64,000 bases of DNA from Tumebacillus lacus. Lineage in GTDB: Bacteria > Bacillota > Bacilli > Tumebacillales > Tumebacillaceae. The stretch covers positions 62,001 through 126,000 of the forward strand of contig NZ_JAPMLT010000005.1 in NCBI RefSeq assembly GCF_026410385.1. Reading direction: 5' to 3'. Made by a program: the position numbers and the translations under genes. The notes under the pieces were generated by a model, which made no database searches, was not told where the DNA came from, and saw only the letters and a list, made by a program, of their open reading frames with translations. This document shows positions 5,638 to 25,818 of this stretch, piece after piece. Each line of letters starts with the position of its first letter. The stretch's first letter is position 1.

Positions 5638-6456
5638 CTACGCTGTGCGCAGAGTGTGAATGGTAAGTTCCGGTCGGGTGCCGAGTCGGACGTTGAGTCC
5701 GGCTTGGCCCAGCCCGTCGGAGATATAGACCGATTTGCCGTTGACGGTGTGCAGGCCGGAGATCACGTTTGCTTTCGGCAGCTCGCCCATCGGGAAGAGC
5801 TTGAACGCGCCCGGGATCTTGAATTGGCCGCCGTGCAGGTGGCCGGACAACAGCAGATCGACTTTGTGATGTTCTTCGAAGTGCAGCGCGATGTTCGGGT
5901 CGTGGGAGAGCACGAGGTTAAACATGCCTTCCTCCACGCCGCGGAAGGAGCGGTGAATGTCCGATTTGCCAAGGCAGAAATCATCGATGCCGATGATGTT
6001 CAGACGCTGGTCGCCGTGCAGGATCGAACCTGCTTCGTTGACGAGCACGTTGACGCCTTTGGCGCGGATCTTTTCTTCCAGCTCTTCGATGCGGTCGCCG
6101 AGGTAGTGGTCGTGGTTGCCCCAGACCATCCAGACGCCGTGTTTGGCGCCGACTGCGAGGATTTCATCGAGATATTTCATGAATTTATCCATGTTTTCGT
6201 ATTTGTCAAGGTAGTCACCGGTCATGACGATCAGGTCCGGAGACGCATCTTGGATCAGGCCGGCCAGACGGCACGGTTTGATCGACAGACGTTCCATATG
6301 CAGGTCGGAGAGCTGCACGATGCGCAGGTCCCCGTGTCCGCCACCCTGCGGCAGGGTCATCTCGACTTCACGGATGACCGGGCGGAACGTGTTGGAGTAG
6401 CTGTAGCCAAGAAGAGCAGCGACGAGGACAACAACGATCATCAGAGTCCAAAACAT
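5638..6456 (-). CDS. Membrane-anchored metallophosphoesterase (YkuE/YaeI type)
   Basis: A 272-residue calcineurin-like phosphoesterase with an N-terminal membrane anchor (LMIVVVLVAALLGYSY). All dinuclear-metal motifs are present in order: SDLH near residue 51, GDYLD near 81, GNHDHY near 114, SHDPN near 186 and GHLHGGQ near 207. Homologues act on phosphomonoesters or diesters at the membrane face; the substrate here is not evident. AAGGTG precedes the ATG. The gene is convergent with gabD and divergent from ntdP, so it stands alone. Confidence 0.9.
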   Translation of the reverse strand: MFWTLMIVVVLVAALLGYSYSNTFRPVIREVEMTLPQGGGHGDLRIVQLSDLHMERLSIKPCRLAGLIQDASPDLIVMTGDYLDKYENMDKFMKYLDEILAVGAKHGVWMVWGNHDHYLGDRIEELEEKIRAKGVNVLVNEAGSILHGDQRLNIIGIDDFCLGKSDIHRSFRGVEEGMFNLVLSHDPNIALHFEEHHKVDLLLSGHLHGGQFKIPGAFKLFPMGELPKANVISGLHTVNGKSVYISDGLGQAGLNVRLGTRPELTIHTLRTA

Positions 6457-6573
6457 CGAGAATCACCTTCTTTTCTTTTTTTGTTTTTTACGATCTTATG
6501 TCAACAAGATATGAGTCTAGCAGGGATACTCCGAGAATGCTACCCCTCAAATCTTGGCACGGGAGGGTCGCCG

Positions 6574-7089
6574 ATGAGAGAAGTGAAGATGCAAAGCTAC
6601 AAACACGACGGACGGGAGCACCGCCGCTGGGTGAAATTGTATGAATTGCCGGGTGAGCGCGGGGTGCTGGTGATCGACCCGGACACGCCGGTGGTGGAGA
6701 GCGACGGCAAGTCGTGGTCGAGTCCGTTTCCGGTGATCTACTGGGTGCATCCGGAAAAGTGGTACAACGTGGCGGTGCTGTGCCGGGAGACGGGCACGGC
6801 TTACTATTGCAACGTCGCGTCGCCGATCCGGTATGAGGAGGGAGAGTCGCTCTATACGTTTATCGACTATGACGTCGATCTGATCGTCAGCGAGGACGGG
6901 GTCGGCGAGATCGTCGATGAGGAAGAGTTGACGGAGCATGCGCATGCGATGCAGTACCCGCCCGACGTGCTGAATAAGATCGCCGAGGCGACGGCGGAGC
7001 TGGTCGCGATGCAGGAGGCGCAGGAAGGGCCGTTTGACCCCGATCTGGTGAGCCGTTGGTTGAAGGTGTGGGAGGAGTATGCCTCATAA
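6574..7089 (+). CDS. ntdP: Nucleoside tri-/diphosphatase, DUF402 family (NtdP-like)
   Basis: A 171-residue cytosolic protein closely resembling Bacillus YgaC/NtdP along its whole length: QSYKHDGREHRRW, VVESDGKSW, YYCNVASP, FIDYDVDLIV and HAMQYPPDVL all have direct counterparts in the version I recall. The family hydrolyses nucleoside tri- and diphosphates using a DUF402 fold with conserved Asp/Lys residues. The start is the ATG at 6574, six bases after GGGAGGG; the open frame extends far upstream antisense to the phosphoesterase gene and is not used. In Bacillus ntdP lies near fabL, and here fabL is 720 bases downstream, so this may be conserved gene order. Confidence 0.88.
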   Translation: MREVKMQSYKHDGREHRRWVKLYELPGERGVLVIDPDTPVVESDGKSWSSPFPVIYWVHPEKWYNVAVLCRETGTAYYCNVASPIRYEEGESLYTFIDYDVDLIVSEDGVGEIVDEEELTEHAHAMQYPPDVLNKIAEATAELVAMQEAQEGPFDPDLVSRWLKVWEEYAS

Positions 7090-7143
7090 GATTGGAAGAG
7101 GCAGGAAATACTTTTCTTGACATCAATCAAGAGGTGAATGCAG

Positions 7144-7647
7144 ATGACGAGGATGAAATGGATCGCGGGCGCGATGATCGCAGGTCTGATGCTAAGCGGC
7201 ACAGGATTTGCCTATGCAGCGGTGACAGAGCCGGTGCACAAGGGTCATCACCAACTGACCGACGAGCAAAAGCAGGCGATCAAAGACGCAGGCGTCGACC
7301 TGAAGGTGTTGAAAGACGGGCATCAGCAGATCCGCCAGTCGTTCAAGGCGTTGCATGAAAAAGGCGAGGCTCTGAAACAGGCGGTGCAGAACACGACCGA
7401 CGAAGAGCTGAAAAAGCAACTGAAAGCGGACATCTACGACATCCACGCCGGCCTCGACAAAGTCCACGCCCTGCACAAAGCCAACAAAGACCTCCGCCAC
7501 GAACTGAAAGCGGCCGTCGAAGCGAAAGACAGCGCGAAGATCAAGGAAGCGTATGAGAAGATGCTGGAGAATCAAAAGCAAGAGCTGGCCCTGATCGAGC
7601 AAGCAAACAAAGCGCTCGATGCCGAACTGGCGAAAGTGAAGAAGTAG
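7144..7647 (+). CDS. Exported helical protein of unknown function
   Basis: A 167-residue secreted protein. An N-terminal signal peptide (MKWIAGAMIAGLMLSGTGFAYA) is followed by a His/Lys/Glu-rich, almost entirely helical mature chain with heptad-like patterning (QQIRQSFKALHEKGEALKQA, YEKMLENQKQELALIEQA), suggesting a coiled-coil or helical bundle at the cell surface. I chose the ATG at 7144, seven bases after GAGGTG, over the in-frame ATG at 7138, which would sit only one base from that site. No family recognised. It is followed by its own terminator. Confidence 0.75.
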   Translation: MTRMKWIAGAMIAGLMLSGTGFAYAAVTEPVHKGHHQLTDEQKQAIKDAGVDLKVLKDGHQQIRQSFKALHEKGEALKQAVQNTTDEELKKQLKADIYDIHAGLDKVHALHKANKDLRHELKAAVEAKDSAKIKEAYEKMLENQKQELALIEQANKALDAELAKVKK

Positions 7648-8634: not shown

Positions 8635-9003
8635 ATGTTGACGGAACAAATTTTTCGCAGCCAGGAATACATGGTCATCCAAGCGGCCATCGCCGCTACG
8701 AACTTTGCAATCGGCGCGTTTACGGTCGAACTGAAAGGCATGGAAGCGCTTGGCAACACCGAGATGGTCGAAAAGCTCAACAACGCGCTGAACAAAGCCA
8801 AAGCCGACCGCAAATTTGCCATGAGCCTGTTTGAAGTGCAGATGGAGGGCAACTTCAACTCCGACGAAGACTTCAAAAAGGTGCTCGATCTCGTACATAG
8901 CTACAACTCGCTGATCGACCACTCCTTGATCAACGGCCGCTCGGCCTTTCTGCCGCTCGGTGCTGTGCCGCACCTGCGCTTCGAGCGCTACGAGGAGCAA
9001 TAA
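8635..9003 (+). CDS. Hypothetical helical protein (122 aa)
   Basis: A 122-residue cytosolic, mostly helical protein of unknown function. The ATG at 8635 follows GAAGAGGTG at a good distance; the in-frame upstream codons lack such a site. Three amphipathic helices can be seen (YMVIQAAIAATNFAIGAF, TEMVEKLNNALNKAKAD, DEDFKKVLDLVHSYNSLIDH). It lies 66 bases after fabL and ends at a strong terminator, so it may be read with fabL. Confidence 0.7.
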   Translation: MLTEQIFRSQEYMVIQAAIAATNFAIGAFTVELKGMEALGNTEMVEKLNNALNKAKADRKFAMSLFEVQMEGNFNSDEDFKKVLDLVHSYNSLIDHSLINGRSAFLPLGAVPHLRFERYEEQ

Positions 9004-9017
9004 GATCGGACCCTTCA

Positions 9018-9048
9018 CCGCCTGTTTTTTCAAACAGGCGGTTTTTTT
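9018..9048 (+). terminator. Rho-independent terminator
   Basis: CCGCCTGTTT pairs with AAACAGGCGG around a short loop, and seven T follow. Confidence 0.9.
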
Positions 9049-9059
9049 CTGTCAACCAA

Positions 9060-9088
9060 TTGTGGAAACGGCAGGGGTTTGATACACT
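9060..9088 (+). promoter_or_regulatory. Sigma-A type promoter of the cobalamin operon
   Basis: TTGTGG and TACACT are separated by 17 bases, directly upstream of the cobalamin riboswitch. Transcription would begin near 9095. Confidence 0.7.
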
Positions 9089-9105
9089 GATTGAGGAATT
9101 TACTT

Positions 9106-9290
9106 TTATAGTGGTAGCCTCCATGACGAGGGAAAGCGGTGCAAATCCGCTGCAGCCCCCGCTACTGTAAACGGTTACGGCGTTCGCGTTTTCACCCATT
9201 GTGCCCGCAGCGGCATGAGAAGGGGCGGACGACCGGTTGGAGCCGTGAGCCAGGAGACCTGTTTTGGATGCCGCACCCAAGGACCCTTCG
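9106..9290 (+). ncRNA. Cobalamin (adenosylcobalamin-type) riboswitch
   Basis: The conserved core is clear: GGGAAAGCGGTGCAAATCCG at 9130, then GCAGCCCCCGCTACTGTAA at 9152, and the B12 box AGCCAGGAGACCTG at 9248. In the 424-base gap between 9004 and 9427 this element is flanked by a promoter and followed by an intrinsic terminator at 9360, so it should stop transcription of the downstream operon when cobalamin is plentiful. This ties all six genes up to 17137 to vitamin B12. Confidence 0.95.
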
Positions 9291-9359
9291 GCGGGAAGAG
9301 TTCGGGTAGAGCGACGCGGGTTTTTTGTGCCCGGTGTCTGCTGTGTCCGGAGAATAACG

Positions 9360-9391
9360 CTTCCAACCGCCTTTGGTTTGGAAGTTTTTTT
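9360..9391 (+). terminator. Riboswitch expression-platform terminator
   Basis: CTTCCAA and TTGGAAG enclose an 11-base loop and are followed by seven T, between the B12 aptamer and the first gene. It is the probable ligand-dependent terminator of the riboswitch. Confidence 0.8.
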
Positions 9392-9427
9392 GTTTTCGTC
9401 GAAATGGAGAGGAGAACGAACTCGGGT

Positions 9428-10744
9428 ATGAAGATGAAATGGATGAATTGGATGGTCTGCATGATGCTGATCATCTCGTTGCTGGTCCCGGCTGTGAGCG
9501 CGTCGGCAGCCGAGGACACCGCGTATGTAAAAGTCCGACTCGTCGGTCTTGGCGACGATGTGAAAGAATCCTGGCTGCCGGTGCGCGCGGGCTCGTACGT
9601 TAACACGGCAGGCGAGTCGGTCGCGCTCGACAAGCCGACGGCGATGGGCGCGCTGGTGCAGATCGCTCGCATGGAGCATCTCGACTACAAGGCCGAGACC
9701 ACGGCGTACGGCGTGTATGTCAAGCAAGTCGGCACCTATCAAGAGAAAAAGCCGACCGCCAACATGGGCTGGGGCGTCTGGGTCAACGGCAAAGCGCCGG
9801 GCGTCGGCGCGGAATCGGCGGAAATCAAATCGGGCGATGAGATCGTCTGGGGCTTCTACGATTGGGAAAAGACGCTCTACCCGCAGGTGGAGATGCCCAA
9901 ATACGTCAAGGCGGGCGTTCCGTTCGAAGTGAAAGTGACGGCGGAGCAGACCACGTATGATGCAGAGTTCAACCCGACGGTGACCACGGTCAACGTCGAA
10001 GGCGCGACGGTGAAACTGAAAAACACCGAAGCTGCGTTTGTCACCGATGCCAACGGCGTGGCGCAGATCACCTTGGCACATGCGGGTCTCGCACAACTGA
10101 CCGTCGAGAAGTTTAACACCGACGGCACGCCGCTCCTGCTGCGCTCCGGCGACGTGCAGGTGCTGGCTGCGTGGCAAACCAACACCTTTACCGATCTCGC
10201 AGGGTATGAATGGGCGACCGCATCGATTCAGCAACTGGCCGACAAAGGCATCGTCATCGGTGACGGCGCAGGCCATTTTGCTCCGGGTCGTTCGGTGAGC
10301 CGAGGCGAGCTGGCGAAGATCCTGTCGCTGAGCGGTGATCTGAACTTTGGTGTGAAGGGCGGATTTATGGATGTCGGCTCGACGCATCTCTTCAAAGACT
10401 ATGTGCAAAACGTGGCGTACAAAGGCTACATGAACGGCTATGCGGCAGGCGATCTGCAAGCTCCCGATTACCTGTTCAAGCCGGAGCAAGGACTGACCCG
10501 CGAAGAACTGGCCGTCGTGCTGGTGCGTGCAGCAGGTCTGCAACCGTCGAACACCAAAATGCTGCTGCCGTACTCCGACCGGGAGAGCGTGAAGGAGTAC
10601 GCGGTTCCGTATCTGCTGACCGCGTATCAAAACGGTCTGATGAAGGGCGACGCGGAAGGCACGTTCCGTCCGCAAGCGACGGTCAAACGCGCCGAAGCGG
10701 CAAAAGCGTTGGTCAACGTTCTCAGCAAGTACGACGTGAAGTAA
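9428..10744 (+). CDS. S-layer-anchored DUF4430 (transcobalamin beta-domain-like) protein
   Basis: A 438-residue exported surface protein. A signal peptide (MVCMMLIISLLVPAVSASA) is followed by a DUF4430-type domain, about residues 30-145, ending in the typical GWGVWVNGKAPG and KSGDEIVWGFYDWE. DUF4430 is related to the C-terminal beta domain of mammalian transcobalamin and intrinsic factor. A beta-sandwich segment follows, about residues 150-255. Three SLH modules fill the C-terminus (ATASIQQLADKGIVIGDG, FKDYVQNVAYKGYMNGY, AVPYLLTAYQNGLMKGDA), anchoring it to secondary cell-wall polymer. It is the first gene behind the cobalamin riboswitch, so I infer that it binds cobalamin or a corrinoid at the surface. 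The start at 9428 is a choice; an ATG at 9404 is also in frame, and the GGAGAGGAG site is rather far from 9428. Confidence 0.85.
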   Translation: MKMKWMNWMVCMMLIISLLVPAVSASAAEDTAYVKVRLVGLGDDVKESWLPVRAGSYVNTAGESVALDKPTAMGALVQIARMEHLDYKAETTAYGVYVKQVGTYQEKKPTANMGWGVWVNGKAPGVGAESAEIKSGDEIVWGFYDWEKTLYPQVEMPKYVKAGVPFEVKVTAEQTTYDAEFNPTVTTVNVEGATVKLKNTEAAFVTDANGVAQITLAHAGLAQLTVEKFNTDGTPLLLRSGDVQVLAAWQTNTFTDLAGYEWATASIQQLADKGIVIGDGAGHFAPGRSVSRGELAKILSLSGDLNFGVKGGFMDVGSTHLFKDYVQNVAYKGYMNGYAAGDLQAPDYLFKPEQGLTREELAVVLVRAAGLQPSNTKMLLPYSDRESVKEYAVPYLLTAYQNGLMKGDAEGTFRPQATVKRAEAAKALVNVLSKYDVK

Positions 10745-10822
10745 GATAAGGGATGGAAGACGGGGCTCCTCGCGTGAGTGAGCCTCGCTCTTTTTCCAAA
10801 GCGGGCAAAGGAGGAACTGGCG

Positions 10823-12097
10823 ATGAAATTGGCAAAAGGGCTTGGATTTTTCGTTGCGCTTGCCTTGGTGACGGCGGCGACCGGATGCGGGACGGAGAAA
10901 AACGCGGATACGCAACGCTCGGAACAACTGCCGGAGCAGGTCGTCGAACTGCCGGAGCAAGAAGCGGAGCAGAAGGAAGCGGAACAAAAAAACCAAGAGC
11001 TGACGGAGGAGGAAAAGGCGAAGCAGGCCGCGCAGGAGAAAGCTGGGGCGACCGATCCGAATACGCCGGTGTCGAACCAGCCGGGCGGAAAGAAAAACGC
11101 TTCGTCGGTCGGTGGCGGGTCAGCGACTTCCGGTCAGGGAGGCGGTTCGGCTGCGAATGGCGGCGGTTCGGCTGCGAACGGCGGGGGAGCGACTTCCGGC
11201 AACGGCGGTTCTGCGCAGCCGGAGAAGCAGATCGCCGGGAAGTATCAGCTGACGGTGACGGAGAATTTTGGCAAGCACGGGGTGTTTTCGCAGTCGGTCG
11301 GCTATACGAAGGATCAGATGGTCCTCGATGTGATGCGCGAACATTTGGAGATCGAGACGGAGTACGGCGGCGGATTTGTCAACTCGATCAACGGGACCAA
11401 GTCGGGCTATACGGACAGATCGATCTTTACCCGGAAACAGCGGGATTGGTTCTACTACGTCAACGGCAGCATCTCGGCGGTGGGATCGGACACGTATGCG
11501 GCGAAGAGCGGCGACGAGGTCTGGTGGGATTATCATGACTGGTCGGGGAGCGGCAGCACCCTGTCTGCGGTGATCGGGTCGTATCCCCGTCCGTTCACGG
11601 TCGGGTACAACGGAGCGACGCCGGGCACGGTAGTCTACTTCGGTGCCGGTCACGCGGAGGAAGCAAGCCGGGTGGCGAGCGCGTTGAAGGCGGCAGGTGC
11701 CGGGAATGTGAGCACTGCCGCGTACGGCAATCAGGATCTGATGGCGGCGGGGACGAACACGGTCCTCGTCGGTACGTGGTCGGAACTGAGCGGGCAGTCG
11801 AACATCGCCGATCTGTTTGCTTCGCCGCAGCGGTCGGGTCTGTATGCGGCGGTGAACGGGGACCGGATGACCGGGCTGACCTACAAAGGCAAAGGCACCG
11901 ACGCGTCGGGCGCAGGAGCGATCCTCGCCACCGCGACCGGCAGCGGCGACACGACCCCGACATGGCTCGTCATCGGCGCGACTGAGGCGGGGCTTGACAG
12001 CGCGGTGCACACGCTGGTCAACAACCCCGGCGCCCTGCGCGGCAAACTGGGCGCTCTGATCGAAGGCGGCACGGTGACCGGCGTACCGGTGGAGTAA
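10823..12097 (+). CDS. DUF4430-containing lipoprotein, probable cobalamin-capture protein
   Basis: A 424-residue lipoprotein: signal peptide with lipobox ATGC near residue 21, then a Glu/Gln-rich charged stretch (residues 25-80), then a Gly/Ser/Ala/Asn linker with repeated GGGSAANGGG-type units (about 95-145). A DUF4430-type domain (about 150-255) ends in DWFYYVNGSISAVG and SGDEVWWDYHDW. The last 170 residues form another domain with repeated Gly/Ala-rich strands (TVVYFGAGHAEEASRVASALK, WLVIGATEAGLDSAVHTLV) that I cannot name. Placed between the SLH-DUF4430 gene and the ECF transporter, it is well suited to hand a cobalamin from the wall-anchored protein to the membrane transporter. That role is inferred. 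Confidence 0.8.
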   Translation: MKLAKGLGFFVALALVTAATGCGTEKNADTQRSEQLPEQVVELPEQEAEQKEAEQKNQELTEEEKAKQAAQEKAGATDPNTPVSNQPGGKKNASSVGGGSATSGQGGGSAANGGGSAANGGGATSGNGGSAQPEKQIAGKYQLTVTENFGKHGVFSQSVGYTKDQMVLDVMREHLEIETEYGGGFVNSINGTKSGYTDRSIFTRKQRDWFYYVNGSISAVGSDTYAAKSGDEVWWDYHDWSGSGSTLSAVIGSYPRPFTVGYNGATPGTVVYFGAGHAEEASRVASALKAAGAGNVSTAAYGNQDLMAAGTNTVLVGTWSELSGQSNIADLFASPQRSGLYAAVNGDRMTGLTYKGKGTDASGAGAILATATGSGDTTPTWLVIGATEAGLDSAVHTLVNNPGALRGKLGALIEGGTVTGVPVE

Positions 12098-12110
12098 GGG
12101 CTGCAGGGAG

Positions 12111-12250
12111 GATGATCGTTGCGACGTCGTATGCGGCTGATGGCTGTATGAAGGGTGATCGTTTCGGCATCGTAAGCGGCTCTAAGTTTGATGGCAGTGT
12201 GAAGGATGATCGTTGCGACATCGTAAGCGATTCGATGTCTGATGGCTGTG
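12111..12250 (+). repeat. Three imperfect tandem repeats upstream of ecfT
   Basis: Units begin with GATGATCGTTGCGAC (12111), GGTGATCGTTTCGGC (12154) and GATGATCGTTGCGAC (12205). Each continues with a TCGTA(A/T)GCG segment and ends in TGATGGC(T/A)GT. Unit lengths are 43, 51 and about 46 bases, so the reading frame is not kept from copy to copy although a 49-codon frame happens to be open. They fill almost all of the 174-base gap inside the operon. Confidence 0.7.
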
Positions 12251-12271
12251 AATTTCGATAGAGGTGTTCTT

Positions 12272-13174
12272 ATGAACCGCAAGCTGTTTTCGTTTGGTTC
12301 TGGTCCGTTTTTCCGTTATCATGCAGCGACGTTGACGGTGTATCCGATGTTGTTGCTGTTTCTGGCGGTGGCGTTGCAGCATCCGATCTTTCTGTTGATG
12401 CTGCTGGCCGTTTCCGTTTTGGCCGTGTGGCGAGGCGGGGGGCTGTCTGCTTTCGGGACGATCTTGCGGTATGCGTGGCCGTTGTTGCTGTTGATCGTGG
12501 TGCTGAATGTGCTGGTGTCGAAGGACGGCGCGACGGTGCTGTGGATCGGGCCGAACCTGTTTCTGCTCGGCAAGATCCGTCTGACGATGGAGGCGTTGCT
12601 GTTTAGCGGCGTGATGGTGGTGCGGATGTTGATCGTGCTGGCAGCCGGTGCACTGTTTGTGGCGTGGCTGTCTCCGGACAGGTCGCTCGGTCTGCTGGGC
12701 CGGATCGCCCGCCGCTCCGCTGTCACGGCGATGATGACGACGCGCCTCGCACCCTATCTCGCCGAGCAGTCGGAGCAGATTGGCGACGTGCTGCGCACGC
12801 GCGGGGTGCGGCTCGATCAGGGCGGACCGGTGCAGCGCATCGCCGCCCGCAAGCCGATGGTGTCCGTGCTGTTGATCTCCGCGCTGGAAGGCTCGTGGCA
12901 GGTCGCCGAAGCGATGGAAGCTCGCGGCTACGGCATGGGTCGCCGCACCTCGTACACCCGGGAGCGGTGGTCCCGCCGCGACGGGCTGGCATGGGCGGCG
13001 ATGACGGCCGCCGTGTGGCTGACGGTGCAAAGTGCATGGTCCGGCTGGAGCGAGTTTGTATTTTACCCGCGTTTGATCGGTTGGCCGTTTGCGGGCGGGG
13101 CGTGGATCGCCGCGCTGGTGCTGGGCACGCTGTTGCTCGTGCCGCCGTTGTTTGCGAAAAGGAGTCGAAGATAG
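12272..13174 (+). CDS. ecfT: ECF transporter T component (EcfT/CbiQ-like)
   Basis: A 300-residue integral membrane protein that couples the ATPases to the substrate-binding S component. Four to six hydrophobic segments are visible (YPMLLLFLAVALQHPIFLLM, WPLLLLIVVLNVLV, VVRMLIVLAAGALFVAWL, WIAALVLGTLLLVPPL). The cytoplasmic coupling helices carry the Ala-Arg-Gly type motifs, TRG in DVLRTRGVRLD and ARG in AMEARGYGMG. The start is the ATG at 12272, five bases after GAGGTG; the longer frame from 12242 runs through the repeats. It abuts the ATPase gene. Confidence 0.9.
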   Translation: MNRKLFSFGSGPFFRYHAATLTVYPMLLLFLAVALQHPIFLLMLLAVSVLAVWRGGGLSAFGTILRYAWPLLLLIVVLNVLVSKDGATVLWIGPNLFLLGKIRLTMEALLFSGVMVVRMLIVLAAGALFVAWLSPDRSLGLLGRIARRSAVTAMMTTRLAPYLAEQSEQIGDVLRTRGVRLDQGGPVQRIAARKPMVSVLLISALEGSWQVAEAMEARGYGMGRRTSYTRERWSRRDGLAWAAMTAAVWLTVQSAWSGWSEFVFYPRLIGWPFAGGAWIAALVLGTLLLVPPLFAKRSRR

Positions 13175-14911
13175 ATGACCCGCTATGATCTGCAACTGGA
13201 ACAATTCACCTATCGCTATCCGGATGCCCCGCGCCTCACCCTCGACCGAATCGACTGGCAGGTGGAGCGAGGGGAATTTGTGTTGCTCGCCGGTCCCTCC
13301 GGCTGCGGCAAATCGACGCTGCTGCGCGCCCTGAACGGACTGGTGCCGGAGTTTTACGGCGGCGAGATCGGCGGACGTGCGCTGTTTCGCGGGCGACCTC
13401 TAGCGGAATTTCCCAACCGCTCGATCGCACGCCATGTCGGGATGGTCTTCCAAGATCCCGAGAAACAACTGGTGATGTCGGAGGTCGAGCGCGAGATCGC
13501 GTTCGGTTTGGAAAATCTGCTCGTGCCGGAGAGCGAGATGCGCCGCCGGGTGGCGGAGGTGATGTCGTTCTTTGACCTCACCGCACTCCGTCACCGCGCC
13601 ACCGCCGACCTGTCCGGCGGGGAAAAGCAAAAGGTCGCCATCGCCGCCGTCATGGCGTTGCAACCGGACGTTCTGCTGCTCGACGAACCGACGTCGCAGC
13701 TCGATCCGGGCGCGGCTCAGGAGATCCTCGACCTGATCAAGCGGATGAACGAGGAGCTCGGCCTGACCGTCGTGCTCGTCGAACAGCGGCTCGACCGCGT
13801 CCTGCATCTCGCCGACCGGATCGTCGCCATGCACGAAGGGCGCATCGACTATGACGGCGAACCGCAAGGATTTGCCCGCTACGCCTCGGAGCAACGCCCG
13901 GAATTGCTGCCGCCGGTGACGAAACTGTTCGCCGATGCGGGTCGCCCGGAACGCCCGCTGACGGTGAAAGCCGCCCGGCAAACGGTCGCGTCGCTCGCTG
14001 GCGTTCGTCCGGCTGCCGACCCGAATGGCGGTGAGTCTGACAAGCGGAGCCTGTCCCGATTTTTCCGAAACGTGCGGCGCATGTTTCGCGGCGGTGAGTC
14101 TGAAGGTGCGATGTTCGAAGCCCGCGATGTGCGATACGCCTACCCGGATGGGGAGGAAGTGCTGAAGGGACTGGATCTGGACATTCTCCCCGGCCGCCTC
14201 ACCGCGATCCTCGGGCCGAACGGGGCGGGCAAGAGCACGATGCTTCGCCACCTGATCGCGTTGCTCAAACCGCAGGAGGGGCGCGTCCGGATCGACGGGC
14301 AAGAGACGAGCTGTCTCGACCCGGCCGACCTCGCCGGAAAGGTGGGGTATCTCTCGCAATACCCGGCCGACTATCTGTTCCACGAGACGTTGCGGGCGGA
14401 GTGTGAGTTTTCGCGCCGCCTGATCGGACTGCCTGTCGGGACGGAAGAGGCGGAGCGGGAGATCGACGCGGTGCTCGACGGACTGGGCTTGCTCGCCGCC
14501 CGCGACCGCAACCCGCGCGATCTGAGCGGCGGCGAACGGCAACGGGCCGCGCTGGCCACCGTGCTCGTGCAGCGGCCGGATGCCTTGCTGCTCGATGAGC
14601 CGACACGCGGGCTGGACAGCGGACAAAAGGATCGGCTCGGCGCATGGCTCAGCCGTTTCGTCGAGGACGGCGGCACGGTGATCCTGATCACGCACGATGT
14701 GGAGTTTGCCGCCGAATACGCGCAGGAGGTCGTCCTGCTGGATGACGGGGAAGCGGTCGCTCACGGTGCACCGCAGGAGATGCTGGCCCGGGGCCTGTTC
14801 TTTGCCCCGCAGACCGGACGCGTGTTTCGCGGCGTGGACGACCGCATCGTCCGCCTCGCCGACGGGGTGGCCGCCCTGCGCAACCTCGCGGGTGAGGAGG
14901 AGTCCCGATGA
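13175..14911 (+). CDS. ecfA: ECF transporter ATPase, two fused ABC domains (A and A')
   Basis: A 578-residue ATPase with two complete ABC cassettes in one chain. The first has Walker A GPSGCGKST near residue 40, LSGGEKQK and Walker B VLLLDEPTS; the second has GPNGAGKST near 348, LSGGERQR and ALLLDEPTR. A linker of roughly 60 charged residues (about 250-310) joins them. It supplies the energy for the ECF transporter encoded on both sides, starting one base after the ecfT stop and overlapping the S-component gene by four bases (ATGA). General ECF modules usually encode two separate ATPases; the fused form is typical of dedicated single-operon ECF systems. Confidence 0.93.
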   Translation: MTRYDLQLEQFTYRYPDAPRLTLDRIDWQVERGEFVLLAGPSGCGKSTLLRALNGLVPEFYGGEIGGRALFRGRPLAEFPNRSIARHVGMVFQDPEKQLVMSEVEREIAFGLENLLVPESEMRRRVAEVMSFFDLTALRHRATADLSGGEKQKVAIAAVMALQPDVLLLDEPTSQLDPGAAQEILDLIKRMNEELGLTVVLVEQRLDRVLHLADRIVAMHEGRIDYDGEPQGFARYASEQRPELLPPVTKLFADAGRPERPLTVKAARQTVASLAGVRPAADPNGGESDKRSLSRFFRNVRRMFRGGESEGAMFEARDVRYAYPDGEEVLKGLDLDILPGRLTAILGPNGAGKSTMLRHLIALLKPQEGRVRIDGQETSCLDPADLAGKVGYLSQYPADYLFHETLRAECEFSRRLIGLPVGTEEAEREIDAVLDGLGLLAARDRNPRDLSGGERQRAALATVLVQRPDALLLDEPTRGLDSGQKDRLGAWLSRFVEDGGTVILITHDVEFAAEYAQEVVLLDDGEAVAHGAPQEMLARGLFFAPQTGRVFRGVDDRIVRLADGVAALRNLAGEEESR

Positions 14912-15627
14912 AGCGTCGTCTCTACTCCGCCTTGCTGATCTTGCTGACCGTCGCGCTGGCGTTCCTCGCCTACACGTACTGGCCGGACGGGGATCTGAAC
15001 TGGGCGTTGACCTCGCTGTTTCTGCTCCTGCTCGGCCTCGGCCTGTTTTATCTGCGCTACGAGCGGGCTGCTGTCACGTCGAAAGAGACGGCGGTGATCG
15101 CCTCGCTGGCAGCGGTGGCCATCGTCGGGCGCATCCTGTTTGCGCCGTTTCCAAACTTCAAACCGACGACCTACATCGTCCTGCTGGCCGGGTATGTGTT
15201 TGGCCCGCGTGCCGGGTTTATGGTCGGGGCGACGGCGGCTCTCGTGTCCAACTTATTTTTCGGGCAAGGTCCGTGGACGCCTTGGCAGATGCTGGCGTGG
15301 GGTCTGGTCGGCGTGACGGCCGGCTGGCTGGGACGCGTGCGCGGAGAGCGCGTGACGGCGTGGGAACTGGCCGGATTTGGCTTGATCTGGGGTTTTTTGT
15401 TCGGCTGGATCATGAACCTTTGGACGTGGCTCTCAACGATGTACCCGCTGAACTTCACGACGTGGTGGCTCACCAACGTGCGCTCTTTGCCGTTTGACAT
15501 CGCGCATGCGGCGGCCAATGTGTTGTTTGCCCTGTTGCTCACGAAAACGTTTCTGCCGATCCTGCTACGGTTCCGGCGCAAATTGACGACGACCACCTTG
15601 GAGGTGCTGACAGATGAAAAGCGTTAA
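14908..15627 (+). CDS. ECF transporter S component, probable cobalamin-specific
   Basis: A 239-residue membrane protein with about six hydrophobic segments (LILLTVALAFLAY, LTSLFLLLLGLGLFYL, TYIVLLAGYVFGPRAGFMVGA, AWGLVGVTAGWLG, WGFLFGWIMNLWTWL). The motif-like region GRILFAPFPNFKPTTYIVLLAGYVFGPR and SNLFFGQGPWTPWQM resembles the CbrT-type S components described for vitamin B12. The riboswitch upstream independently points to cobalamin or a precursor. It is the substrate-binding membrane subunit and overlaps both neighbours, so stoichiometric translation with the ATPase and the SLH protein is likely. Confidence 0.82.
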   Translation: MKRRLYSALLILLTVALAFLAYTYWPDGDLNWALTSLFLLLLGLGLFYLRYERAAVTSKETAVIASLAAVAIVGRILFAPFPNFKPTTYIVLLAGYVFGPRAGFMVGATAALVSNLFFGQGPWTPWQMLAWGLVGVTAGWLGRVRGERVTAWELAGFGLIWGFLFGWIMNLWTWLSTMYPLNFTTWWLTNVRSLPFDIAHAAANVLFALLLTKTFLPILLRFRRKLTTTTLEVLTDEKR

Positions 15628-17137
15628 GAGATGGACGGCGCTCGCCCTGACGGCTGCGCTCCTGCCGATTGGCGGCATCGCGCACGCAGCAGACAACGCG
15701 ACCCTGCAACAAAGCCGCGACAACGCGATGAACTACATGCACCAAGAGCTGAGCAAAAACCAGTTCCGCTACGTGCTCGACTGGCCCGCTCTGGCGATCT
15801 ATGCGGCGGGGGAGGATGTGACCGGGCCCAAGTGGAGCACCCTCGACGGCAAAAACGGCGTCAAATGGCGCGAGTCCGATCTGCTCAAACAGGTGAACAT
15901 CGGCGATGCCACCACCGATTTTGAAAGCACGCTGCTCGGCGCGTTGGCTGCACATCAAAACCCGCGTGCCTTCGGGAAAAAGGATCTCATCCAAGCGATT
16001 CTTTCCTCCCAGCAGGAAAACGGCAAATTTGCCGACACGATCTACGGCTGGGGCGAGGACCTGCTCAACGCGCATGTCTACGGCATCATCGCGCTGTACG
16101 CAGCGGGGCAGCCGATTCCCAAACAAGAGCTGGCGGCCTCCTATCTGCTCGGCAAACAGCATGCGGACGGCGGATTTAACTGGTCGTCGGATGCAATGTC
16201 CGACCCGGATATCACGGCGATGGCGTTGATCGCGATGAAGGCGTTGGACCTTGACGCGTCCCATCCGAACGTGCAAAAAGCACAGAACTATTTGAAAAAC
16301 ATCCAAAAGGACAACGGCGGATTTGTCGCGCTCGGGGTGGAAAACAGCGACACGTCTTCGATCATCATCGAAGCGCTGCTGATGCACAGCATCGACCCGG
16401 CAAGCTGGGACAAGAGCGGCGGCGACCCGGTCGACAACCTGCTCACCTATCAGACGGCGGGCGGCTCCTTCTCACACGTGCGCGGACAGACGGCATCCAA
16501 CCTGATGGCGACGCAAAACGCGGCGACGGCACTGTCCGGCCTGCTGACAGGCAAATCGGTCTACCAGCGCCTGCACGAGCAAAACGATGGTAAATCGTGG
16601 AGCTCCGCCTTCCCGGATCTCCCGTACTCGCACCCGTACTATGCGGAGGTGACCAAACTGGTCAACCTCGGCGTGCTTAACGGGCGCACCGACGGCACCT
16701 TCTCGCCGGAGGACCGCGTCACCCGCGAGCAGTTTGCCAAGATCCTCGTGCTGGGCGCGGGGCAGGGCGACGCAGTCGGACCGCGCACCTCGCAGTTTCG
16801 CGACCTCGACTACAACGGTTGGGCCAATCCGTACGTCAAGCTCGCCTTCGACCAAAAATGGATCGTCGGCACCTCGGCCGATACGTTCGCTCCGACCGGG
16901 CAGTTGACCGGCGCTCAGATCATGACCGTGCTCGTGCGCATGCTCGGTCTCGAATCGGCTGCCAAGGCGTATGAGACGCAGAGCGGTCAAGGCTGGCCGG
17001 CGGGGCACATGCACGTCGCCAAGGCGCAAGGTCTCTACTATCCGAACCTCGCCGCACACCAACCGGCCACCCGTGCCGAAGTGGGCTACGCATTTGTCCG
17101 CTACTATGAAGCGGCGATGAAACAAGTGGCGAACTAG
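15614..17137 (+). CDS. S-layer-anchored alpha/alpha-toroid protein (intrinsic-factor alpha-domain-like)
   Basis: A 507-residue exported protein with signal peptide (ALALTAALLPIGGIAHA). Residues about 30-315 form an alpha/alpha toroid of the prenyltransferase/terpene-cyclase type, seen as repeats of a GG-F turn followed by a helix: QQENGKFADT, KQHADGGFNWSSD, IQKDNGGFVALG, YQTAGGSFSHV, each with a TA-AL-AL type helix. Mammalian intrinsic factor and transcobalamin have this same fold as their N-terminal alpha domain. Three SLH modules follow (PYYAEVTKLVNLGVLNGR, NPYVKLAFDQKWIVG, and a weaker third). The gene overlaps the S-component gene by 14 bases and ends the cobalamin operon. With the DUF4430 proteins it could complete a two-part cobalamin-binding site on the cell surface (inference). 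No terpene-cyclase catalytic motif was seen. Confidence 0.82.
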   Translation: MKSVKRWTALALTAALLPIGGIAHAADNATLQQSRDNAMNYMHQELSKNQFRYVLDWPALAIYAAGEDVTGPKWSTLDGKNGVKWRESDLLKQVNIGDATTDFESTLLGALAAHQNPRAFGKKDLIQAILSSQQENGKFADTIYGWGEDLLNAHVYGIIALYAAGQPIPKQELAASYLLGKQHADGGFNWSSDAMSDPDITAMALIAMKALDLDASHPNVQKAQNYLKNIQKDNGGFVALGVENSDTSSIIIEALLMHSIDPASWDKSGGDPVDNLLTYQTAGGSFSHVRGQTASNLMATQNAATALSGLLTGKSVYQRLHEQNDGKSWSSAFPDLPYSHPYYAEVTKLVNLGVLNGRTDGTFSPEDRVTREQFAKILVLGAGQGDAVGPRTSQFRDLDYNGWANPYVKLAFDQKWIVGTSADTFAPTGQLTGAQIMTVLVRMLGLESAAKAYETQSGQGWPAGHMHVAKAQGLYYPNLAAHQPATRAEVGYAFVRYYEAAMKQVAN

Positions 17138-17171
17138 ACTAGACAGCGAGGGCTGTCGATGCAACGAAAAA

Positions 17172-17225
17172 AGAGAGTGTCCGTATGACATCCTGGGATG
17201 CAGCGGACACTCTCTGTTTTCTTTT
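17172..17225. terminator. Terminator between the cobalamin operon and rsfA
   Basis: AGAGAGTGTCCG pairs with CGGACACTCTCT around a 20-base loop. T-rich sequence follows on the + strand and A-rich sequence precedes it, so it can serve both convergent genes. Confidence 0.88.
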
Positions 17226-17245
17226 CGTGGATGGGGCGGCGAACG

Positions 17246-17860
17246 CTATTCGCTCACACGCTCCAGGTTGCCGTGATCGTCCATTTTAAAGCGGGGCGCT
17301 TTCACGCCTTGCTGCTCCATCTCCAGCAGTTTGCGGGCGCGGTCCATGATCTCCAGCAGCGCTTTCGAGTCTTCGCCGCCGAGCAGATCAGGCGCTTTGT
17401 CGTCGCCGACCTGATGGCGAAGGCGGGAGTTTTCATGCAGCACGGAGGAGAGCTGCGTCTCCAGCTCTGCGATGCGCTCTTCGAGCTGGCGGGATTTTTC
17501 TTGCAGGTTGTAGTATTCGCGCTCGTGATTTTTCAGTGCACGGATGATGCCGTCGATCGACGGGTCTTCGAGGTCCGGTCCGTAGGCGCGACGTTGCTTG
17601 GCCTGTTGACGCATGGAGAGCCGCTCTTTTTTCGCGAGCTTGGCATCTTTGATATGGTCTTCGTAGTGTTTGCGCACGACGCCGTTCCAGCGATAGCCGC
17701 ACGCGGCCGGGGTGCGGCCGAGCAGGTTGGCCGATTCGACGAACGCGTTCAGTTGCGTGCTGCCTTCTCGTATATGACGCAGGACGATCTCCGCCAGCTT
17801 TTGGTCATCATCCGCGGTCCACGCGTCGGAGCGGGTGGTCCAACGTTCAACAGTTTCCAT
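17246..17860 (-). CDS. rsfA: RsfA-type prespore transcription regulator
   Basis: A 204-residue DNA-binding protein. The N-terminal 60 residues form a Myb/SANT-like domain (RSDAWTADDDQKLAEIVL, SANLLGRTPAACGYRWNGVVR) as in Bacillus RsfA and related spore regulators. A basic linker and a coiled coil (YYNLQEKSRQLEERIAELETQLSSVL) follow. Family members act under sigma-F control to tune prespore gene expression. I use the ATG at 17860, seven bases after GGAGG; the adjacent ATG at 17863 would be too close. It is divergent from the HAD gene. Confidence 0.87.
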   Translation of the reverse strand: METVERWTTRSDAWTADDDQKLAEIVLRHIREGSTQLNAFVESANLLGRTPAACGYRWNGVVRKHYEDHIKDAKLAKKERLSMRQQAKQRRAYGPDLEDPSIDGIIRALKNHEREYYNLQEKSRQLEERIAELETQLSSVLHENSRLRHQVGDDKAPDLLGGEDSKALLEIMDRARKLLEMEQQGVKAPRFKMDDHGNLERVSE

Positions 17861-18023
17861 CATATCGCCTCCAAAATCGTATATTACCTTTATGTCCCCT
17901 AGTTGGGAGATTGATACACTTTCATCCACGAAATTTAGATGTCTGTAACATTCATATGAGAGAGTCCGCCCATTCTGTCACTTTTCCAGCTGAAAAATAG
18001 AGAAAAAGTTTGAAATTTTTTTC

Positions 18024-21760: not shown

Positions 21761-22579
21761 ATGACTTGGTACAGCGTGCGGATGCGGGCGGCGGAAGGCG
21801 GTCCGCATGAGCAGGGCGGCGCGCACATCTCCGGCGGCGAGCGCATCGTCGGCGAGGAGGAGATCGAAGTCATGGTGCAACGCTTGCTGCGGCGGGCGAT
21901 GACGCATGAGAAGGGGCGGCCGGATTTTATTAATCTGACGGTGGAACGGGTGCCGGATGAGGGGATCGGGAGCTTGACTGCACTGCCGATCCGCACCCGT
22001 CCGGTCGCCGATCTGACGGAGGGGCGGGCCGTCGCTGTCGAACTGCTCGAAGCGTGCGGCATCGACAGCCGGATCGCACAGTACGCGGTCGACCTGATCG
22101 CCGGCGGTCCGGCACCGGACGGCGGCGCGATGCGGGGGGCGATCGTGCTGGATGCCGACACGGGCGAGCGGCTGGAAACAGACCCCGCGCGCGGCGTGCG
22201 GATCTCCAAGATCGACTGGGCCCCGGACGCGCTTGCAGCTTGGCGGGAACAGGTGGCGGCAAACGGCCTTGCCAATGAGCGGATCGCCGAAGCGGTGGCG
22301 CTGGCGACCAAGGTGACTTCGACGCCGGGCACGGTCGCCGAACTGTGCTGGTCGGATGATCCCGGCTATGTGGCGGGCTATGTCGCGTCACAGCGGCTCG
22401 GGTATGTGCGTATTCCCTATTTAAAACCCCTCGGCAGTCCGTTGGGCGGCCGGGTGTATCTTGTGCGCGGTGTGAGGGATGCGGCGGCGTACGAGCGCGA
22501 GTTGCAAGTGCCGGCGCTGGTGCAGGCCATTCCGCCGCAACCGTATCTCAATGAAGAAGGAGAGCTGTCCAAAAGATGA
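21761..22579 (+). CDS. bioW: 6-carboxyhexanoate-CoA ligase (pimeloyl-CoA synthetase) BioW
   Basis: Activates pimelate to pimeloyl-CoA with ATP, the entry step of Bacillus-type biotin synthesis. The 272-residue protein shows BioW signatures: [24 protein letters not shown]-like start, [23 protein letters not shown], and GGRVYLVRG near the C-terminus. GAGGAGGAG precedes the ATG at 21761. It is the first gene of a five-gene operon under the BirA box and overlaps the next gene by four bases. No bioI cytochrome is present, so free pimelate must come from elsewhere in the cell or from outside. Confidence 0.94.
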
Positions 22580-23970
22580 CGACCGACTACCAGACGCTCA
22601 GTGAGAAGAGTAAACAGTACCTCTGGAATCCGTTTACGCAGATGAAAGGCTACCACGAAGACCAGCCGCTGATCATCGAATCGGCGGAAGGCGTCAAATT
22701 GCGCGATGTCACCGGCCGGGAGTACTACGACGGCGTGTCGTCCGTGTGGCTGAACGTGCACGGTCATCGCGTGCCGGAGCTCGACGAAGCGATCAAGGAG
22801 CAACTGGGCAAGATCGCCCACTCCACGCTGCTCGGGATGGCGAACGTGCCGGCGATTGAGTTGGCGGAGCAGATCATCCGGGTGGCGCCGCAGGGGCTCC
22901 AGAAAGTCTTTTACTCCGACTCGGGCGCGACGTCGGTCGAGATCGCGATCAAGATGGCGTTCCAATATTGGCAACACAAAGGCAAGCCGGAAAAGCAGTC
23001 GTTTGTCACGATGAACAACGCCTATCACGGCGACACAATCGGCGCGGTGAGCGTCGGGGCGATCGACATCTATCACAAAGCGTATTCGAAACTGCTGTTC
23101 CGCTCGTACCGGGTGGATTATCCGTACTGCTACCGCTGTCCGGTCAGCCAAGAGCCTTCGTCGTGCGGATTTGCTTGTCTCGAACAGGTGGAGTCGCTGC
23201 TGACCGAAAAAGCCGGGGAGATCGCGGCGTTTATCATCGAGCCTGTCGTCCAAGGGGCGAGCGGGATCATCACGATGCCGTCCGGATTCCTCAAGGAGCT
23301 GCGGAAGTTGTGCACCGAGCATGACGTGCTGATGATCTGCGACGAGGTGGCGACCGGCTTTGGCCGCACGGGGGCGATGTTCGCCTGCGACCACGACGGG
23401 GTGACGCCCGATCTGATGTGCGTCGCCAAAGGGCTGACCGGCGGCTATCTGCCGGTGGCGGCGACGCTTGCGACCGATGAGGTGTACAACGCGTTTCTCG
23501 GAAGCTACGAGGAGAAAAAGACGTTTTTCCACGGCCACTCCTATACGGGCAATCAGCTCGGCTGCGCGGTGGCGTTGGCCAATCTGAAGTTGTTCCATGA
23601 CCGCGGCCTGGTCGCGGATGTGGCAGACAAGTCGGGTCATGTGGCGGAGCGTTTGGAGGCGTTTTCTTCTTTGAAATCTGTCGGTGACATCCGACAGCGC
23701 GGGTTTATGATCGGGATCGAACTGGTCAAGGACAAAGCGACGAAGGAAGAGTACGACTGGCAGGAAAAAATCGGTTTGCTCGTCTCCCGCCGGGCCTGCG
23801 AACTGGGCATGATCCTGCGCCCGCTGGGCAATGTGGTCGTGTTCATGCCGCCGCTCGGGTCGACGGTGGCGGAGCTAGATGAGATGATCGACATCCTCTA
23901 CAAAGCGATTGAGGACATCACCGAAAAAGGCGTGAAGACGCGCGGGGAGGGACTGCCGCATGGACTTTAA
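22576..23970 (+). CDS. bioA: DAPA aminotransferase (BioA/BioK)
   Basis: A 464-residue class III, PLP-dependent aminotransferase converting 8-amino-7-oxononanoate to 7,8-diaminopelargonate. Motifs include [10 protein letters not shown] at the N-terminus, [44 protein letters not shown] and the PLP Lys in [14 protein letters not shown]. The sequence is much closer to Bacillus BioA (also called BioK), which uses lysine as amino donor, than to the SAM-using E. coli enzyme. The donor is therefore probably lysine, which is inference from similarity. It overlaps bioW by 4 and bioF by 11 bases. Confidence 0.93.
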
Positions 23971-25117
23971 GAGCGAGCTCGACGAGATTCGCGAGGCCGG
24001 CCTCTATCGCAGTTTGCGGCGGATGGAGAGCGCGACGCAACGGGCGGTCACCGTGGAGGGACGGACGCTGCTGATGTGTGCGTCGAACAACTACCTGGGT
24101 CTGGCCAACGATCCGCGCGTGCAGGAAGCGTCGATCCGGGCGATCCGCGAGTACGGCACGGGGAGCGGCGGTTCCCGGCTGACGACGGGCAATACGGATC
24201 TGCATGAAAAGTTGGAAGAGGAGCTCGCCATTTTCAAACGGACGGAGGCGGCGTTGCTGTTCAACTCCGGCTATGCGGCCAATGTGGCGGCTCTGACCGC
24301 GCTGGTCGGCGAGGGAGACCTGATCCTGAGCGACGCGCTCAACCATGCCTCGCTGATCGACGGGGCACGGCTGTCGAAAGCGCAGCGGCAGGTCTACGGA
24401 CACGCCGATCTGACAGAGCTGGACGCGCTGCTGCGGGGGGCGCAGGGGCGGTATCGGCGCATCCTGATCGTCACCGACGGCGTGTTCAGCATGGACGGCG
24501 ACATCGCGCCGCTGCCGGCGATCTGCGACCTGGCGGAGCAATACGGCGCCGATGTGATGGTCGATGACGCGCACAGCACCGGTGTGCTCGGGCCGAACGG
24601 GGCCGGGACGGTCGATCACTTCGGGCTGTACGGCCGGGTGGCGGTGCAGATGGGCACGTTGTCCAAGGCGTTCGCAGCCGAGGGCGGCTACATCGCGGGC
24701 AGCCGCGACATGATCGACTATCTGGTCAACCGGGCACGACCGTTTATTTTCTCGACGGCGCTGAGTCCGGCGGTGATCGGCGCGGCGCGGGCTGCGTTGC
24801 AGATCGTCCGCGAAGAGCCGCACCGCCGCGAGCAGGTGTTGGCGCAGGCGGAGTGGCTGCGGTCGATGTTGCGCGGGGAAGGGTTTACTGTGTTTCCCAG
24901 CGAGACGCCGATCATCGGCGTGTTGATCGGCGAGGCGGAGGAGGCGGTCGCCTTTGCCAGACGGTTGGAGGAGGCCGGGGTGTACGCGCCGGCGATCCGT
25001 CCGCCGACCGTGCCGGCGGGCACGTCGCGCATCCGCCTGACGCTGACGGCGACGCACACCAACAGCGACGTGGACGCGATCCGGGAGGCGTTTGCCGTGG
25101 CGAGGGGGGCGGTGTGA
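23960..25117 (+). CDS. bioF: 8-amino-7-oxononanoate synthase BioF
   Basis: A 385-residue alpha-oxoamine synthase condensing pimeloyl-CoA with alanine, PLP-dependent and cytosolic. Typical segments are [48 protein letters not shown] and the PLP-binding Lys in [15 protein letters not shown]. Length and motifs are normal. The start overlaps the end of bioA and the stop overlaps the bioD start (TGATG), so translation is coupled. BioF can be mistaken for glycine C-acetyltransferase, but the operon settles it. Confidence 0.95.
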
Positions 25118-25818
25118 TGAGGTCCGCGTTTATCACCGCCACCGACACAGGCGTCGGCAAAACGCTCGTCACCGGGGCGCTGGCGTGGTGTCTGCGGGAG
25201 CGGGGCGAGGACGTCGGCTGCTACAAGCCGGTGCAGTCGGGCGACCTGCTGCACGACGAGACCGGCGACGTCTGCCGCCTGAAAGCGTTGAGCGGTCTGC
25301 CGGACCCGGTGGAGCGGATCGGCCGCTATGCGTTCGCCGAGCCGCTCGCCCCGCGGCTGGCGGCGGAGCGGGCCGGGTCGCCGCTGTTGCTCGCCGATCT
25401 GCTGGCCGCCTTTGACGAGGTGCGCGGGGATCACGCCCGCTGGCTGGTCGAAGGGGCGGGCGGCCTCGCCGTGCCGCTGACAACAGACGCGACCGTCGCC
25501 GATCTGGCCGCGCAGCTCGGGTATCCGTTGCTCATCGTCGCTCGCGCTCACCTTGGCACCGTCAACCACACCGTGCTGACCGTCCGCTATGCGGAGTCGC
25601 TCGGTCTGCGGGTGGCCGGCGTGATCCTGTCCGGCGGCAAGGGAGCCGCGCACGACCTTTCGGAGGCCTATAACGCCGCTTACATCGAAGAGTATGCGAA
25701 CGTGCCCGTTCTTGGGCACGTGCCGTGGCTCGGGGATCTGCCGTCCGTTCAGACGGTTCGGGACAGCGTCCGGGCGCATGTCGACCTGGATCGTGTCGAT
25801 TCTTGTATGAATTTCTAA
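25117..25818 (+). CDS. bioD: Dethiobiotin synthetase BioD
   Basis: A 233-residue ATP-dependent carboxylase that closes the ureido ring. The P-loop is ATDTGVGKTLVTGAL at residue 8, with YKPVQSG, VEGAGGLAVPL and ARAHLGTVNHTVLT following as in the family. The frame is open well upstream within bioF, and the true start is the ATG at 25117 overlapping the bioF stop. The C-terminus (VPWLGDLPSVQTVRDSV) is complete. G+C is very high in this gene compared with bioB. Confidence 0.95.
   Translation: MRSAFITATDTGVGKTLVTGALAWCLRERGEDVGCYKPVQSGDLLHDETGDVCRLKALSGLPDPVERIGRYAFAEPLAPRLAAERAGSPLLLADLLAAFDEVRGDHARWLVEGAGGLAVPLTTDATVADLAAQLGYPLLIVARAHLGTVNHTVLTVRYAESLGLRVAGVILSGGKGAAHDLSEAYNAAYIEEYANVPVLGHVPWLGDLPSVQTVRDSVRAHVDLDRVDSCMNF

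Follow-up and report, generated by a model that had tools for sequence, protein, structure and literature searches.

We asked how an operon of Tumebacillus lacus that lies behind a cobalamin (vitamin B12) riboswitch might gather corrinoids at a Gram-positive cell surface, and how its proteins relate to intrinsic factor, the B12 carrier of animals. The operon was found in a 64 kb stretch of contig C22 (the window) of a genome of 4.18 Mb in 26 contigs that is 95.7% complete. Six genes follow the riboswitch on the same strand: an SLH-anchored DUF4430 protein (D1), a DUF4430 lipoprotein (D2), EcfT, a fused EcfA-A', an S component of the CbrT family and an SLH-anchored alpha/alpha-toroid protein (Table 1). 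This arrangement had been claimed in an earlier, sequence-only reading of the window and was confirmed, as the RF00174 match lies well above the gathering score of 31.5 bits, the Pfam and NCBIfam content agrees, and the order is kept in all five complete loci of the same family. It is probable that the operon genes capture and import corrinoids, and the locus as a whole is a real, conserved, B12-regulated operon that would have that function.

The relation to the animal carriers is seen most clearly in relatives. In many of them toroid and DUF4430 occur in a single polypeptide, often with SLH repeats, and loci L075-L154 contain 18 places where the next domain after a near-complete toroid, at a distance of 37 to 252 residues, is a near-complete DUF4430; this is the order of intrinsic factor. 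We modelled the 370-residue toroid-DUF4430 stretch of one of these proteins, from Paenibacillus tengchongensis (L122), aligned with 12 others (predicted local distance difference test, pLDDT, 91.4; predicted template-modelling score, pTM, 0.85). When the model was compared with the PDB by Foldseek, ranks 1 to 14 were taken without exception by structures of transcobalamin, haptocorrin or intrinsic factor (E 5.7e-10 to 5.4e-7), with 398-435 alignment columns over both domains at 13-18% identity; terpene cyclases came next, from 1.4e-5. By VIA-align, residues 1-365 of the model were matched to intrinsic factor (3kq4_A) with Z 17.5, a root-mean-square deviation (rmsd) of 19.8 Å and 317 aligned positions. 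The claim that the operon holds the two modules of intrinsic factor was thus borne out through a fused relative from the same operon position. Because this relative retrieves transcobalamin, haptocorrin and intrinsic factor over both domains, 'analogue', the term of the sequence-only reading, is too weak a word. Compared with the animal proteins (PDB 2PMV, 3KQ4, 8IXU, 4KKI), the bacterial side shares the alpha/alpha toroid and the C-terminal beta domain, but differs in its low identity, its SLH anchors, its modelled domain placement and, in the window, the splitting of the modules. Toroid and beta domain form one ordered chain in relatives such as L122 and L151 (Paenibacillus eucommiae), and lie on separate chains in the window.

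That the halves are carried by separate SLH proteins is real in the window's family. There the modules are spread over three proteins, namely the DUF4430-SLH protein, the DUF4430 lipoprotein and the toroid-SLH protein. The same six-gene order was found in L055, L056, L058 (where the lipoprotein reads in two frames), L059 and L060, and also in L057, where the contig ends within the locus; RF00174 precedes all six. The window toroid protein matched L035, a fused toroid/DUF4430 open reading frame (ORF) without SLH, at 2e-31, and on account of this sequence match it would be kin to the fused toroids. To place the two DUF4430 proteins, a tree was built from 121 of 225 domains over 84 columns, with 60 of its 118 inner branches left open. 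Surface and stand-alone types changed into each other 7 times, compared with 40.6 in shuffles, D1 being labelled as surface type by its SLH repeats. D1 and its orthologues fell in a set of 33 rows, of which 23 bear a toroid and 3 are stand-alone ORFs (Shimodaira-Hasegawa-like approximate likelihood ratio test, 84), and D2 fell in a mostly stand-alone set. This fits, without proving, a history in which D1 and the toroid protein would descend from a single fused protein whose halves came apart; it fits in the same way D2 as a separate lipoprotein, which many relatives also carry next to EcfT.

The transporter was assigned by comparison with known structures. The S protein of the window matched the 'Membrane protein' chain 6fnp_A at E 9.2e-9 as a single sequence and at 6.8e-28 with a 25-row profile, with residues 62-225 aligned; this chain is taken to be CbrT. 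The sole other PDB match was 4hzu_S (E 0.21 single, 9.4e-7 with the profile). Pfam and NCBIfam supplied generic names, ECF-ribofla_trS over cut-off and the folT family under it, and the S-component alignment (A1) carries the motif SNxFFGQGPWTPWQM. The CbrT type proposed from sequence alone therefore held. According to the available part of PMC5997447, 6FNP is ECF-CbrT, a demonstrated importer of cobalamin and cobinamide. Set beside that complex from Lactobacillus delbrueckii (PMC5997447, 6FNP), the window has the same S family by sequence, an EcfT and two ATPases, but its ATPases are fused, its S protein has ~60 extra N-terminal residues, and extracellular capture proteins stand in the operon.

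Both DUF4430 proteins score above the curated cut-off of the family (PF14478, 23.8 bits). In D1 the domain spans ~9638-9856, behind a signal peptide recognized by eye, and an Ig/MG-like stretch (MG4) falls below cut-off. For D2 the ATG at 10823 is the more likely start, and the N-terminus is lipobox-like by pattern in the window and in its orthologues. A lipobox pattern was counted in 51 of 103 stand-alone DUF4430 ORFs, a crude figure since starts were uncurated and at least one locus was entered twice (L071 is L147). In 26 of these 103 ORFs a motif of the type W-D-Y-H/Q closes DUF4430 by pattern, reading WWDYHDW in the window (~11522-11542); its histidine could touch the cobalt. Behind DUF4430, D2 has an unannotated conserved C-terminal domain that recurs among the fetched loci in 29 ORFs (a figure in which one locus enters twice), all of them stand-alone DUF4430 ORFs, including some on contigs labelled Clostridia, Actinomycetota and Euryarchaeota. 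Its best Pfam match was BcsB (E 0.41) and its best PDB match an antibody (E 0.11). We regard it as a candidate docking part on the S component, a guess from the company it keeps.

We then asked how widely DUF4430 goes with cobalamin riboswitches. In a first set of 200 genomes from the host's class, 68 had DUF4430, and riboswitches were sought in those 68: 41 had a match by tally, and at least 150 places were listed in 38 genomes. In these 38, 79 of 87 DUF4430 domains followed an RF00174 riboswitch on their own strand at a distance of no more than 20 kb (32 of the 38 genomes), where position alone would give roughly 1%, as each genome of 4-5 Mb has about four riboswitches. In the window's family all seven sampled genomes, the host included, had both DUF4430 genes, ~0.35 and 2 kb behind the riboswitch. 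The eight unlinked domains were one each in G066 (at 23.5 kb), G073, G110, G112, G125, G143, G149 and G170. The other 30 of the 68 genomes, which had no listed RF00174, each encode one small DUF4430 protein of 131-188 residues, with a weak cobalamin riboswitch match in three (G028, G047, G157). Riboswitches of other ligands were a refuting case named in the sequence-only reading. Scans with all Rfam models over 37 loci found, of this sort, only a flavin mononucleotide riboswitch in L054 and a thiamine pyrophosphate riboswitch in L045, by position at other genes. Ten of the scanned loci were exceptions or neighbours of exceptions; RF01482 was seen in one of them (L052), and no riboswitch in the seven besides these three, L046 included.

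The S component served as anchor for the second set, which comprised the best 80 of 588 confirmed places in titled GTDB records; at least one genome is shared with the first set, L071 and L147 being the same locus. By their titles, most of these 80 loci come from Bacillota (Paenibacillus, Clostridium, Desulfotomaculum, Moorella, Bacillus and others), with contigs of metagenome-assembled genomes labelled Actinomycetota, Armatimonadetes, Deltaproteobacteria and Euryarchaeota among them. DUF4430 was present in 74, a toroid in 66, either in 75, and both adjacent in one ORF in 53; the five loci with neither are short, with S near the start. A cobalamin riboswitch stood upstream of S in 60 of the 80, and in 53 of the 59 with at least 9 kb of upstream sequence. 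The 60 consist of 52 coordinate-matched sites that passed a motif check, L132, which was genuine on reading, and seven (L088, L090, L097, L098, L101, L103 and L106) that came to light when 16 of the 22 unmatched loci were scanned directly with Rfam, L101 being barely over threshold at 34.1 bits. The co-occurrence expected by the sequence-only reading was therefore found, and the proposed capture system is widespread.

Three DUF4430 loci differ in composition. In L052 (G143; 6393-7534, minus strand) a pair of DUF4430 and small S genes lies directly behind the adenosylcobalamin riboswitch RF01482, with no toroid found in the fetched stretch. In L047 (6869-7742, plus strand) the gene of a small S component and that of a DUF4430 lipoprotein overlap, and the genome, of 2.1 Mb, looks streptococcus-like by eye; no riboswitch was found at the locus, and the substrate of this pair is possibly not B12. 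In L054 (7069-7476, plus strand) a lone DUF4430 lipoprotein sits between cytidylate-kinase-like and S1-like genes (by eye), with no adjoining S component.

Taken together, the genes suggest the following route. When cellular B12 is low, the riboswitch would let transcription pass its terminator. Two wall-held SLH proteins, one of transcobalamin type (DUF4430) and one an alpha/alpha toroid, would catch corrinoids outside the cell. Of single modes, the likeliest would be a clamp that encloses the corrin, as intrinsic factor and transcobalamin do. It would close in trans in the window and in cis in many relatives, and that the window proteins do form it in trans is a tentative proposal. From D2, with its C-terminal domain as the candidate dock, the ligand would go on to the S component of the CbrT family, and EcfT with EcfA-A' would power import. 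For ECF (energy-coupling factor) transporters, the binding protein has been described as the S component in the membrane. The fuller reading, which we hold as possible rather than probable, is a two-part intrinsic factor, in which wall-anchored toroid and DUF4430 close on one corrinoid in trans and D2 serves an ECF transporter as a dedicated substrate-binding protein outside the cell. If this is true, animal intrinsic factor would be the soluble descendant of a bacterial surface machine. In favor of corrinoid capture and import by these genes we counted that the host genome has a single PS_pyruv_trans gene; SLH anchoring usually requires such a gene.

Several observations weigh against the route proposed for these genes. 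The structure predicted for the last gene product has the toroid fold that the sequence-only reading had expected (pLDDT 91.8, pTM 0.92), but taken alone it does not point to intrinsic factor in particular. By Foldseek its nearest matches were prenyltransferase beta subunits (E 9.3e-8), by VIA-align squalene-hopene cyclase (Z 23.6, rmsd 3.2, 267 aligned), and transcobalamin and intrinsic factor were absent among the 50 matches listed. The ligand-free L122 model differs from the crystal structures by a whole-chain rmsd of ~19-20 Å, so its relative domain placement is a different one, and by VIA-align its toroid was topped by terpene cyclases (Z 20.4, rmsd 2.9, 229 aligned). Among profiles searched against the PDB, the fused profile (A2) placed squalene-hopene cyclases at the top, and the beta domain of transcobalamin-2 came in at an insignificant E of 0.69; the DUF4430 profiles reached transcobalamin-1 at 0.53 and transcobalamin-2 at 0.91 (A4), and transcobalamin-2 at 0.17 (A5). 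Outside its own family, D1 has mixed neighbours in the tree (nearest rows: stand-alone, toroid-bearing, stand-alone, stand-alone), and the closest fork enclosing D1 has a support of 66. In L046, a complete relative operon, no riboswitch was seen, and the equation of DUF4430 with B12 was rejected, as for some DUF4430 genes no B12 signal was seen. Finally, a B12 synthesis operon lies behind the other riboswitch of the host, so scavenging is not obviously essential.

Two related candidates were also given up. An assignment of the window toroid specifically as an intrinsic-factor domain was rejected, as its model matches prenyltransferases and cyclases best, and the profile links to transcobalamin were rejected as proof, being all insignificant and below unrelated chains. 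PF01122, which we take to be the animal alpha-domain family of intrinsic factor and transcobalamin, gave no row, either with the toroid and DUF4430 proteins of the window (searched to E 0.1) or with 10 relatives (to E 0.01). The toroid protein also touches the SCO2321 membrane protein family of NCBIfam at 43.7 bits against a cut-off of 300, a hint at toroid relatives in Streptomyces.

The cyclase matches raise the question of whether the DUF4430 proteins and the ECF transporter carry out B12 uptake while the toroid-SLH protein has another role, as a wall-bound glycan- or lipid-binding protein or an enzyme, with no clamp in this lineage. Pairs of DUF4430 and S genes behind cobalamin riboswitches, without a toroid in the fetched stretch (L038, L041), would agree with this. 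Against it, the toroid recurs in most of the 80 S loci, in 53 of them in one ORF with DUF4430, and is kept in every complete locus of the family. An enzyme is further disfavored by sequence: the class II terpene cyclase motif is DXDD, which was not found in the window toroid, where the aligned stretch reads DPDITAM, that is D-P-D-I at the motif (alignment A3); the second D of this stretch, D172, is kept in 56 of 56 rows of A3. We therefore consider this division of labor improbable. An arrangement in which each surface protein binds corrinoid alone, for avidity or wall buffering, would make D1 and the toroid protein parallel receptors with no clamp in trans. Each has its own SLH anchor, and in many relatives DUF4430 is present in several copies and further toroids sit on different chains, but in transcobalamin both modules contact the ligand (available part of PMC1796856) and in 53 of the 80 loci both modules share one ORF; we judge parallel receptors unlikely.

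It is also conceivable that the operon only responds to B12 status and imports another tetrapyrrole or cobalt compound, such as a cobinamide precursor or a heme-like molecule. CbrT also takes cobinamide, according to the available part of PMC5997447, and the L047 pair of DUF4430 and S has no riboswitch. Kinship to CbrT and the cobalamin riboswitches across the survey argue against another substrate, which makes it very improbable.

The core idea behind corrinoid capture by such proteins is not new. Burroughs, Balaji, Iyer and Aravind defined the SLBB superfamily in 2007 and included the C-terminal domain of transcobalamin in it. The available part of their paper (PMC1796856) describes bacterial transcobalamin-like domains fused N- or C-terminally to a toroid, and operons with CbiO, CbiQ and a second SLBB protein; it predicts B12 scavenging by Gram-positive surface proteins, proposes a transfer from low-GC Gram-positives to animals, and states that such bacteria usually lack key B12 synthesis enzymes. 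The window operon is a split variant of the system predicted then: it shares with the systems in the available part of that paper the transcobalamin-type beta-grasp, the toroid and the CbiO/CbiQ-type operon, but splits the modules over SLH proteins in a host that encodes B12 synthesis. The word 'riboswitch' is absent from the text of PMC1796856, which predates the CbrT work. In the part of PMC4350170 that was available, the DUF4430 domain is placed in the C-terminal region, as in TCN proteins. New here are the riboswitch link, the CbrT link, the two-domain structural match, the split state and the unannotated lipoprotein domain. The lipoproteins BtuG and BtuH have folds that differ from those of the toroid and DUF4430. 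As surface proteins of Bacteroides that catch B12 ahead of a transporter (PMC6143338, PMC10404256 and PMC8941943) they resemble the proposed system, but they belong to outer-membrane BtuB systems. The BtuH paper, in its available part, describes knowledge on Firmicutes as scarcer and mentions one btuH homologue near a predicted ECF-like transporter (PMC8941943).

In the open-licence literature, which leaves subscription journals mostly uncovered, we found no paper in which B12 binding by a DUF4430 protein or a toroid protein from bacteria was tested, and among the open-licence papers that mention DUF4430 none studying a bacterial B12 system. Extracellular B12 capture by Gram-positive bacteria is thus little documented in the searched literature, though B12 is competed for. 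In the survey, DUF4430, the toroid and the CbrT-family transporter are connected through their regulation and their gene order, both in many Bacillota and on contigs labelled Actinomycetota, Armatimonadetes and Euryarchaeota. It supplies organisms with names, and constructs of single genes, with which the 2007 proposal on the origin of intrinsic factor and transcobalamin can be tested, and the split family offers a natural experiment on whether both halves need one chain.

Table 1. Coordinates of the operon features in the window and of the gene that bounds the operon downstream.
Feature	Position	Strand	Evidence
Cobalamin riboswitch aptamer, RF00174	9092-9280	+	93.2 bits, E 7.1e-22, model positions 1-189 (full length)
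Probable intrinsic terminator of the riboswitch expression platform	9359-9393	+	Hairpin then T-run; fold and reading
SLH-anchored DUF4430 protein D1	9428-10744	+	Pfam DUF4430 39.8 bits, SLH 102.2 bits (three SLH stretches)
DUF4430 lipoprotein D2	10778-12097	+	Pfam DUF4430 58.7 bits; DUF4430 at ~11318-11536
Unannotated conserved C-terminal domain of D2	11558-12094	+	~175 residues; alignment A6
EcfT transmembrane coupling subunit	12242-13174	+	PF02361 CbiQ 50.3 bits, over cut-off
Fused ECF ATPases EcfA-A'	13175-14911	+	Two ABC_tran stretches; TIGR04520 366.3 and TIGR04521 363.6 bits, both over cut-off
CbrT-family S component	14908-15627	+	Match to PDB 6FNP chain
SLH-anchored alpha/alpha-toroid protein	15614-17137	+	Pfam Prenyltrans 38.4 bits, SLH 58.3 bits; toroid ~15695-16594, SLH from ~16610
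Convergent Myb-like gene	17246-17929	-	Downstream boundary, outside the operon

The first three intergenic gaps of the operon are 33, 144 and 0 bp, and the last two junctions overlap by 4 and 14 bp. The upstream gene is set apart by a strong terminator-like site at 9017-9042. When the sequence between the riboswitch and D1 (9281-9427) was folded, the minimum free energy and centroid structures both contained a stem at 9359-9393 (z -2.15; 7 of 200 shuffled sequences reached this stability). The T-run behind it was read by eye and the site was not listed by the consensus terminator scan; hairpin and T-run probably form a transcription terminator. For 8900-17400 the promoter and terminator consensus scan listed no sigma-70-like promoter on the plus strand and no terminator-like site after 17137.

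The host genome has two DUF4430 genes, both in the operon, and two RF00174 riboswitches in total. The second riboswitch (contig C12, minus strand; locus L168) precedes matches to CbiH, CbiJ, CbiD, CbiET, CbiL, CbiF, CbiC, CobB/CbiA and CobA; a CbiG match behind it is under the cut-offs of its models, and a CobT gene is located just before it. The B12-binding cut-off was exceeded at ten places in the genome. The host thus probably both makes and scavenges corrinoids. A CbiX-like ORF (by eye) in L168 (8495-9871, minus strand) has a long repeat tail rich in His and Asp, perhaps a cobalt store. Elsewhere in the window, on the plus strand, we observed biotin-operon-like genes (bioA, bioF, bioD and bioB by eye) at 22576-26850 and a cyclic di-AMP riboswitch, RF00379, at 29932-30066 (76.2 bits).

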